Assembly (NCBI RefSeq): GCF_030034735.1
Contig: NZ_CP125370.1
Span: 3,224,001-3,288,000, forward strand
Length of the DNA stretch: 64,000 nucleotides
Source of the DNA: Paenibacillus sp. RC334
GTDB lineage: Bacteria > Bacillota > Bacilli > Paenibacillales > Paenibacillaceae
Direction: 5' to 3'
Part shown: positions 3,740-5,600 of the stretch, piece after piece
Numbering within the stretch: position 1 is the first letter of the stretch
Layout of the letters: each line of letters begins with the position of its first letter
Translations under genes and position numbers: made by a program
Notes under the pieces: generated by a model
The model's database searches: none
Seen by the model: the letters and a program-made list of their open reading frames with translations, nothing else
Told to the model about the DNA's origin: nothing

Positions 3740-3937
3740 AAGGCAAAATCATTGGTTATGGTGGTGGGGAGGGGAGGCGCTATGTGGAGGATTTGATCTT
3801 ACGATCGCTGTTGCCGCCGGATTTTTTTCGATTAGATTTTTATGGGGAAAATCCGGCGGCAAAGGCGAACGCTATCGCTTCTCCAGATTCAAATCCTCCA
3901 CTCCGCTACTGCACAGCCATAAAGATGAATTTGCCTT
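3740..3937 (+). repeat. Structured intergenic repeat, copy 1 (nested inverted repeats)
   Basis: A non-coding stretch that folds as a long nested palindrome. The outer arms are 3740-3760 with 3917-3937 (AAGGCAAA...TTTGCCTT). The middle stem is a perfect 13 bp, 3784-3796 with 3889-3901. The inner stem is a perfect 15 bp, 3811-3825 with 3848-3862, with a 22-nt loop. A small GCGA/TCGC hairpin sits at about 3864-3878. A second copy lies in reverse orientation at 5340-5600. Stem positions differ between copies in a compensatory way, so the structure rather than the sequence appears to be conserved. It is not a gene: no ribosome site precedes any reading frame in it. Together with flanking sequence it fills the gap 3556-4173. 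Confidence 0.8.
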
Positions 3938-4001
3938 AGGAGAGAAGTTGGGTAGATAAAGATGCTTTGCTGGCTTTCAGCCAAGCTTCGCGGAGTGAGT
4001 T

Positions 4002-4043
4002 AAAAAGACGTAAATACGAATTTTATCGTATTTACGTCTTTTT
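4002..4043. terminator. Bidirectional terminator downstream of the butanediol dehydrogenase gene
   Basis: Perfect 18-bp stem 4002-4019 with 4026-4043 and a 6-nt loop, with A/T runs on both sides so that it can terminate either strand. It lies 130 bp after the end of the dehydrogenase gene. Its arms (GACGTAAATACGA) resemble those of the hairpin at 5151-5189 on the other side of the same gene. Confidence 0.85.
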
Positions 4044-4173
4044 TTGTTGTGATGTCTACTTCTTTTTATGTGTAAGAAAAGATTCTCATACAGCATTTTA
4101 GCTCTCATATTGCAACCTTACACTATATCTAAAAAGGATTCATAATTGCGTCATAATACAACCTTTAAATCTT

Positions 4174-4962
4174 TTAAAGGAACATCATGCCACCGTCGAT
4201 CAGTGGGGATTGTCCTGTCATGTAATCGGAATCAGGGCCTGCCAGGAAGGATACGAAGGCAGATACGTCTTCCGGTGTAGAAAGACGGCCCAGGGCAATT
4301 TTACTGCCGAATTCCTTGGTCGCATCGCCAGTAGCTTCACCTTTGGATGCCGTAATTTCTTTATCAATGCCACTCCACATTGGCGTTTGTACAATGCCGG
4401 GGCAGTAGGCGTTAGCTGTAATACCGTATTGGGCATATTCCTGAGCGGCGGTTTGTGTTAGGGCACGAACTGCAAATTTGGTGGCGGAGTAAATACCCAG
4501 GTTGGCATTACCGACATGGCCTGCCTGAGAAGAGGCATTGATGATTTTACCACCATGACCCAGTTCCTTGAACTTGGCGGCTGCTGCCTGAATGCCCCAT
4601 AATACACTGGTCACATTGATGTGGAACAGCTTGTCAAAATCAGCCAGCGTGACATCCTCCAATAGCTTGGCGGGAGCAATCCCCGCGTTATTTACAATGA
4701 CATCAAAGCCACCGAGTTTTTCAGATGCTTCCTTTACAGCCGCAAAAACCTGATCCCGGTTGGAAACATCGACTTTAAGCGCAAGCGAGCGCCCTCCTGC
4801 CTTTGTAATCTCACCAGCAACACTTTGGGCCGTTTCTTCATTCAAATCCACGATTGCCACTGCGAAGCCATCTTGACTGAGGCGTAAAGCAATAGCCCGT
4901 CCAATCCCTTGACCTCCACCCGTTACTAATGCAACTTTCCCATTCACTTTACCCATGTTCAT
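4174..4962 (-). CDS. budC: Acetoin/diacetyl reductase (2,3-butanediol dehydrogenase), SDR family
   Basis: Classical short-chain dehydrogenase of about 260 residues, predicted to reduce diacetyl/acetoin to 2,3-butanediol with NADH, a main fermentation route of P. polymyxa-type bacteria. The motifs are [13 protein letters not shown] (cofactor, near residue 12), NNAGIAP, and the active-site pair S and YSATK (NASSQAGH... then IYSATKFA). The C-terminal [12 protein letters not shown] is typical of the acetoin reductase subfamily. Two ATGs two codons apart (4962 and 4956) share the AAGGAG site; the longer frame to 4989 has no ribosome site. The gene stands alone between two hairpins and two inverted repeat copies. 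Other SDR substrates cannot be excluded. Confidence 0.85.
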
Positions 4963-5150
4963 GAATCTCCTTTTTGTATAAGTAGTCATGATAACATAGC
5001 CACAAAATTATGGGTTACGTTAGTCTGCACCTATAATTAAACCATTTTAAGGAAAAAAATATTATGATATATGTAATAGACTTCATGTTTAACCTGTTTA
5101 AGGGAAATTCAAGTGATACTATAATAAACACTTACCCAAACAAAAAAACT

Positions 5151-5189
5151 AAAAGACGCAAATGCGAGAAATATCGCTTTACGTCTTTT
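5151..5189. terminator. Terminator-like hairpin upstream of the butanediol dehydrogenase gene
   Basis: Imperfect stem 5151-5167 with 5174-5189 (AAAAGACG...CGTCTTTT), loop of 6, with A/T runs on both sides. On the minus strand it would end transcripts from tseB and insulate the dehydrogenase gene. The rest of the gap 4963-5150 is AT-rich. I could not identify a convincing sigma-A promoter or a full Rex operator in it. Confidence 0.75.
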
Positions 5190-5339
5190 TAGTCTTCAAT
5201 GATTCAAAACTACACATTCTTTTATAAGACAATGTCTTCTAATTTCACATATCTTTTTTAGTAAAAACGATTTTCCAGTTCGTACAGAATTAGTTTGGTG
5301 TAAAACCCAAAACGGAGACAAGCGCAGCGGCGTCCGTGC

Positions 5340-5600
5340 CCCCTACCCCCCAACTCCCATAGAAAGAGTGGTGTTTGGAGTAACTCCATCGCGATCAGCC
5401 AGCGGAGTGGGCCATTTGAATCTGAAGAAGCGAAGCGTTCGCCTGAAAGCTTTCTGAAAGAAAGCTCGGTTCGGAAGCATATGCTTGCCGACGGATTTTC
5501 CCCATAAGAATCTAATCGAAAAAAAATCCGTCGGCAACAGCGATCGTAAGCTCAAATGGACCACGCAGCGCTCTCACACCACCATCAGCCACTCTTCACC
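5340..5600 (-). repeat. Structured intergenic repeat, copy 2 (inverted relative to copy 1)
   Basis: Read on the minus strand it aligns with copy 1 through the segments around TTACGATCGCTGTTGCCG and GATTCAAAT. The inner stem is 5485-5499 with 5523-5537 (15 bp). The middle stem is 5407-5419 with 5552-5564, with one mismatch. The outer arms are 5363-5371 with 5589-5596. It carries an extra block of about 40 nt not in copy 1, itself hairpin-forming (an 8-bp GCATATGC palindrome, and AGCTTTCT/AGAAAGCT at 5448-5466). It ends a few bases from the tseB stop codon. No credible coding frame is present. Confidence 0.8.

Follow-up and report, generated by a model that had tools for sequence, protein, structure and literature searches.

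Repeats comparable to those described here are known from several bacteria. RUP, from pneumococcus, is described as a simple 107-bp intergenic repeat with about 110 copies and a TA target, and its terminal inverted repeat (TIR) is reported to resemble that of the IS630-family element IS630-Spn1 (PMC3049150, PMC2229807). The Correia/NEMIS elements of Neisseria are portrayed as TIR-bounded, TA-ended miniature inverted-repeat elements (MITEs) that lie mostly directly upstream of genes, with inversion reported (PMC10969869, PMC2229807). For the ERIC/IRU/RU-1 repeats of enterobacteria, an intergenic position, a TIR, a TSD and TA ends are described (PMC2229807), and the length of ERIC is given as 127 bp (PMC2759123). 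BOX, also from pneumococcus, is presented as a modular repeat of variable size with a predicted base-paired structure (PMC3049150).

Here, we describe a dispersed family of short, deeply palindromic, mobile-looking elements across Paenibacillus, to which two repeats of one locus, W1 and W2, belong. Judged by the published descriptions, the family is like RUP in being a short intergenic repeat, with an IS630-like TIR in one branch and a putative TA target; unlike RUP, it has nested covarying stems, optional blocks, forms of about 68-230 nt and a genus-wide spread. It also differs from BOX as described, since it is made of nested hairpins, and these modules vary among orthologous sites. ERIC is described from enterobacteria and Vibrionaceae (PMC10969869), whereas the present family occurs in Paenibacillus and a few genera of its order, a contrast drawn from descriptions only. 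In a literature search conducted mostly outside subscription journals, we found no paper on such a repeat family in Paenibacillus. Covariation between paired positions is commonly read as strong evidence of a functional RNA, and we found no work in the literature that joins it with bacterial miniature inverted-repeat elements.

Results

The window, which is the whole stretch of DNA analysed (64,000 nucleotides; G000:C1:3224001-3288000), comes from a host genome (G000) of 5.98 Mb in a single contig. It holds two copies in opposite orientation, at the places where the initial annotation had put them. The core of W1 is of the standard form (132 nt) and lies at 3777-3908 on the plus strand (covariance-model match G000:C1:3227777-3227908, 137.7 bits, E 2.2e-31). 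The core of W2 is of the long form (172 nt) and lies at 5400-5571 on the minus strand (G000:C1:3229400-3229571, 70.1 bits, E 7.5e-14). W1 is among the 19 sequences behind the covariance model; W2 was not used for building it.

Both copies are built from nested stems. In W1 (plus strand), 14-nt outer arms at 3739-3752 and 3925-3938 form an inverted repeat with 93% complementarity. Inside these lies a 13-nt middle stem, GTGGAGGATTTGA/TCAAATCCTCCAC (3784-3796/3889-3901, 100% complementary), followed by the inner stem TTGCCGCCGGATTTT/AAAATCCGGCGGCAA (3811-3825/3848-3862), a section of a longer inverted repeat. The inner stem of W2 (minus strand), read in its own orientation, is TTGCCGACGGATTTT/AAAATCCGTCGGCAA (5523-5537/5485-5499; 15 nt, 100% complementary). 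One C-G pair of the W1 inner stem is A-T in W2, and the two sequences thus bear out the compensatory change reported initially. The middle stem of W2, GTGGTCCATTTGA/TCAAATGGCCCAC, was read from the sequence on the minus strand, with 5407-5419 pairing with 5552-5564. Here the two reported flips from G-C to C-G are present; the account had left unmentioned the single mismatch of this stem, T-C in W2, at a neighbouring position that is an A-T pair in W1. W2 does carry the added hairpin block, with a size of 42 nt rather than the claimed 40 (5443-5484, minus strand), between the inner stem and a conserved AGGCGAACGCT box. Similar blocks occur in other copies too, including at orthologous sites that are without the block in sister genomes.

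An acetoin/diacetyl reductase gene (4174-4962, minus strand; NF006394 above cut-off) lies between W1 and W2. It is itself bracketed by two related hairpins at 4002-4043 and 5150-5192 (AAAAAGACGTAAATACGA.../...TCGTATTTACGTCTTTTT). At the same locus in the relatives G007, G033 and G015, the hairpin is single and the reductase gene is absent, which suggests that the gene was gained or lost between the two related hairpins. In the G014 orthologue (L068), the place of the gene is taken by unrelated sequence of about 1.9 kb. Beyond W2, positions 5605-6129 (minus strand) show weak similarity to TseB, below the cut-off; 33 nt separate the end of this gene from the core of W2.

The family is large and genus-wide. 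With W1 as the BLASTN query, the host genome gave 46 matches, some copies counting as two, and the best after W1 itself had an E value of 2.3e-28. A covariance model was built from the 19 host copies (alignment A1; 38 pairs, 20 of them with a double change). It found 71 matches in the host genome at E <= 0.001, which leaves at least 64 places after removal of seven opposite-strand re-hits of the palindromic inner hairpin; this count is perhaps too low, as 150 of 1725 first-look candidates were scored. Matches were present in 41 of 59 genomes: every genome of the genus (36, with the host among them) and 5 of the 23 others of the order, with copy counts that are lower bounds (56 candidates scored per genome). 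Genome G034 holds at least 146 matches (150 candidates scored), of which 125 were listed. A pattern scan of named genomes returned at least 120 stretches, and all 80 of those listed came from records titled Paenibacillus. The proposal of a Paenibacillus-wide, MITE-like family with compensating stems and an optional hairpin block is supported by these matches and by the covariation below. Neither an absence of further copies in a covariance-model search of Paenibacillus nor stems broken without compensation, the outcomes that the initial annotation had set against its own proposal, was seen. A search of the whole window against Rfam gave no match at the gathering score and weak sub-threshold ones only.

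Elements of the family have the general features of a MITE, being short (about 68-230 nt overall), dispersed and non-coding. Cores occur in three forms: short (about 68 nt, without the inner hairpin), standard (about 135 nt) and long (about 172 nt, with the extra block). The inner and middle stems vary in sequence and retain their pairing, and between them the conserved boxes CGATCGCTGTT, AGGCGAACGCT and CGCTTCTNCAG flank an asymmetric internal loop. These boxes look like a recognised structure, which would suit an RNA too. Three tandem copies spaced by about 185 nt stand at G032:C1:1150139-1150645, and G004:C188 has two.

One branch of the family has ends of the IS630 type. Inverted repeats of the TATATAAGTTGAACTAA type enclose many of the full elements of G034, and others have different outer arms. 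This repeat, within one mismatch, occurs 61 times in G034, 64 times in G008 and 45 times in G011, against 0 for the backwards pattern. Among 14 genomes, we detected 11 loci with the transposase domain DDE_3 (PF13358): six in the host, three in G006 and one fragment each in G008 and G012. The other ten genomes had no match to PF13358, including G034 and G011, both rich in IS630-type ends. Two of the 11 loci, L354 (G006) and L359 (G000), have the TATATAAGTTGAACTAA repeat at both ends with 0-1 mismatch; the remaining nine have no such ends within two mismatches on both sides. Both L354 and L359 match DDE_3, the former being spread over two frames and the latter broken. The DDE part of L354, the one locus examined in this way, scores above the NCBIfam cut-off for IS630 (NF033545), and an end of L354 has 24 identical nucleotides in common with one G034 arm. 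A TIR-spacing search of 360 partly overlapping loci found three distant TIR pairs, two of them around IS630 genes and the third at L183.

In the host genome, IS630-type ends within two mismatches stand beside 4 of the 64 cores; three have one such end, and the copy at 3867143-3867371 has them on both sides. W1 and W2 have no IS630-type ends. By the likeness of these repeats, a TIR shared with a putative IS630-family element is found in one branch and in the host copy at 3867143-3867371, and the shared core alone would tie W1, W2 and the older host copies to the transposase. A second G034 class (L177:16516, L185, L187, L191 and others) carries CGTTCCG...CTCCACTA on the two sides of the core in place of CACTCCG...CTCCGTTA, as though the outer part had been inverted with respect to the core.

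Elements are present at some orthologous sites and absent from others. The argF-argG spacer contains an element in G034, G008, G001 and G012 and none in G002, G011, G003, G013 and G010; G009 and G014 are also without it, in spacers too divergent to align well. In G012 (L201), a second copy is nested inside the first with both of its ends visible. We compared 15 G034 copies, from 5 of 20 fetched regions, with G011: four are cleanly absent (one being the argG site), two are shorter and nine have DNA of element length, as judged on length alone. Judged by eye, three of the four clean empty sites read as a TA duplication, and the fourth is rearranged.

Orthologous loci also differ in the form of the element. 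One and the same locus can carry different forms in G000, G006 and G007. Eight loci were compared by eye in these three genomes, with flanking blocks mostly 91-97% identical, and at five of them (959830, 977708, 1216777, 1230686 and 1231046) the inner hairpin is swapped as a unit. At locus 918309 it is the middle stem that has switched, in both arms, with an almost constant inner hairpin; neither a hairpin swap nor a stem switch was seen by eye at 1216316 and 2940775 (G006). Among the orthologues of W1, the core is shortened in G007 and G033 and absent in G015. The alignments make the shortened cores look like deletions at hairpin bases; the G015 locus could, as an alternative to deletion, be an empty site. 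At the 3849181 locus the core is absent in G004. In the host, by eye, the left arm of this copy overlaps the stop codon and the final residues of the upstream gene, and in G017, G019 and G021, which are without the element, the C-terminus resembles that of G006.

Outer arms are locus-specific yet complementary. For 30 host copies (60-nt arms), the mean score was 23.8 against the arm's own partner, 13.8 against other loci and 13.1 for random sequence; the own partner was the best match for 17 of the 30 arms and ranked 17th or worse for 4. The 52 G034 copies gave 23.1 against the own partner and 16.0 against other loci. This match may come from insertion into palindromes, from flank copying or from slow concerted change. 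Template switching is described as homogenising the arms of inverted repeats (PMC8604942). The arms of W1 in orthologues mostly alter on one side (by eye), which argues against fast correction. Concerted change of the outer arms was also considered at one locus in six species, where 32 of 720 pairings scored at least as high as the true one; this is suggestive only, and we did not adopt it.

Covariation within the family is very strong. Alignment A3 comprises 92 copies, taken from 80 fetched records; pairing holds in 91.5% of its cells and 27 of 38 pairs are doubly changed. Its covariation measures lie above all of 500 shuffles, with, for example, 481 doubly changed cells against a shuffle mean of 128; A3 and the G034 alignment A2 were fitted to the covariance model and therefore lean towards its structure. 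In A2 (61 rows, six of which are partial re-hits), four of five covariation measures lie above all shuffles, and the count of further pair types does not exceed them (277/500).

The initial annotation had taken covariation as a sign of selection on a folded RNA, and this part of its reading is weakened by the mismatches that the stems contain. Within pairs whose commonest state is Watson-Crick, we counted 11 G-U cells in A1, 31 in A2 and 53 in A3, and 11, 33 and 92 A-C cells, respectively. The counts used 19 rows of A1, 54 of 61 of A2 and 91 of 92 of A3, with short and duplicate rows dropped, and left out the pairs with another commonest state (two in A1, four in A2 and two in A3). The pattern of a strand-specific RNA, with G-U tolerated and A-C avoided on one strand, was not found in the totals (95 G-U vs 136 A-C). 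As a control, the acceptor and T stems of ten tRNAs (120 cells) held 11 G-U and 0 A-C; these are 10 of 12 tRNAs, two having been removed by a pairing filter that is itself biased against A-C. A-C is thus at least as frequent as G-U where tRNAs show none, which speaks for a strand-symmetric constraint at the DNA level. From these mismatch counts, the pairing looks to have been kept or created at the DNA level rather than by a working RNA.

This bears on the possibility that the family is a strand-specific structured RNA, either a 3' or 5' UTR regulator or a small RNA, that is dispersed by chance and whose fold is kept by selection. Such an RNA would fit the double changes in both alignments (the 19 host copies of A1 and the 92 others of A3), the conserved internal boxes and the two pairs excluded from A1, each of them G-U and conserved in the sense strand. 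Against it stand the A-C counts, set beside the tRNAs, and the lack of an Rfam match at the gathering score. We regard this explanation as improbable.

Copies are intergenic and polar. We placed 42 of the 64 host copies (the 30 best-scoring and 12 chosen ones) relative to genes that a simple script predicted from codon usage. No copy falls within a gene, and a single one overlaps the end of a gene, by 20 nt. Of the 40 host copies with genes on both sides, 35 have the nearer gene on their 5' side (medians 54.5 vs 407 nt; binomial p 1.4e-6, although pair members are not independent). Among 54 G034 copies, from 20 regions picked for holding copies, the nearer gene is likewise on the 5' side for 37 of 53 (one tie). 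A gene end is found on the 5' side of 24 of the 42 host copies, which would let an RNA be read in the sense direction; in G034, however, a gene start is found there in 43 of 54 copies, so that the opposite strand would be transcribed.

Close pairs (<2.5 kb) point inward in 12 of 12 cases in the host and in 2 of 12 in G034. The idea that a pair is one transposon with long ends was rejected, as the 12 host spacers share only end stretches (outer arms) at E 0.01. Terminator-like hairpins are visible in several of these spacers. An inversion between two pairs 14 kb apart was likewise dismissed, the segment being collinear in G006 and G007.

The polarity and the inward host pairs would be expected of host-beneficial boundary elements, with the 5' side to the gene, whose copies are retained because they protect or insulate transcripts. 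Yet the close pairs of G034 follow no inward rule, and at several orthologous sites the core is absent or reduced. We likewise did not adopt a promoter within the element as an explanation of the polarity, given a consensus scan, with general consensus weights, against dinucleotide shuffles. In 40 of the 54 G034 copies, the means on the two strands were 6.87 and 6.40, not above the shuffles (7.30 and 7.14), which also speaks against boundary elements. The 19 host cores scored 6.65 and 6.16, above their shuffles (4.92 and 4.84) on both strands and within one standard deviation. Correia elements are described as carrying promoters (PMC10969869), whereas no promoter signal was accepted here, a comparison by descriptions only. 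On balance, boundary elements seem to us an unlikely explanation.

Orientation along the chromosome differs between the two genomes. In G034, 103 of the 125 listed copies (of 146) fit a replichore-like split with two breakpoints, whose best value was 81; the highest value among 1000 permutations was 55. No replication-strand bias was found in the host, where 956 of 1000 permutations were as high. As a cause of the G034 pattern, replication-strand bias was set aside, because the pattern is consistent with gene orientation, given the gene starts on the 5' side.

The replichore-like bias would also suit elements of the REP/BIME type, moved as single-stranded hairpins by a Y1 transposase (RAYT) or an IS200/IS605 relative. 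The present elements resemble REP/BIME with RAYT in being palindromic and intergenic and in forming BIME-like inverted pairs, and hairpins with strand-symmetric pairing are in keeping with such a system. In contrast to such a system, the single Y1_Tnp match (PF01797) in the host, at 1400916, is far from any listed copy: the nearest are at 1231046 and 1594741, none being within 150 kb. The earlier suggestion of REP elements with a tyrosine transposase is not supported. Moreover, gene orientation could account for the G034 bias, and the terminal inverted repeats and TA flanks of one branch fit a DDE transposase instead. We consider a REP/BIME origin very improbable.

Discussion

The data show how this repeat family is built, how widely it occurs, that orthologous sites may carry or lack an element, and that one branch has IS630-type ends. 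We think it likely that W1 and W2 are old members of a non-autonomous, TA-inserting MITE family, and that its covariation mainly reflects the biology of palindromes at the DNA level.

In the mechanism that we propose, an IS630-family transposase would move the elements in trans via their terminal repeats. After insertion, long imperfect palindromes would persist in intergenic DNA, where they could lose the inner hairpin by deletion, gain or lose the block of about 40 nt, and swap whole inner hairpins with other copies. Matched changes in the arms would then arise mainly from cassette exchange and template switching between arms, and perhaps from hairpin recognition in transposition, rather than from selection for a strand-specific RNA. 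Recognition of the hairpin by a transposase-like enzyme, the other option of the initial annotation, is perhaps compatible with these data. Nearby transcripts may be affected by the elements.

The polarity relative to genes and the locus-specific outer arms go beyond what a palindromic MITE alone explains, and the inward orientation of all close host pairs likewise calls for an explanation. A more speculative scheme, which we put forward tentatively as possible though doubtful, is that an inner-hairpin cassette is traded among dozens of loci while the outer arms come to form, at each locus, a palindrome of their own with the flank, and even with gene ends. Palindrome-templated DNA synthesis would write the covariation, and selection would keep mostly those copies that turn their 5' side to a gene. 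If this were true, the covariation would be a signature of DNA replication that mimics an RNA fold.

The elements make up a repeat family that occurs throughout Paenibacillus and has candidate parents of the IS630 type. Its filled, empty and swapped orthologous sites allow the evolution of palindromes to be followed. The family is also a warning case, in which very strong covariation comes with no strand preference, and it provides a test set for a simple check, the comparison of G-U with A-C.
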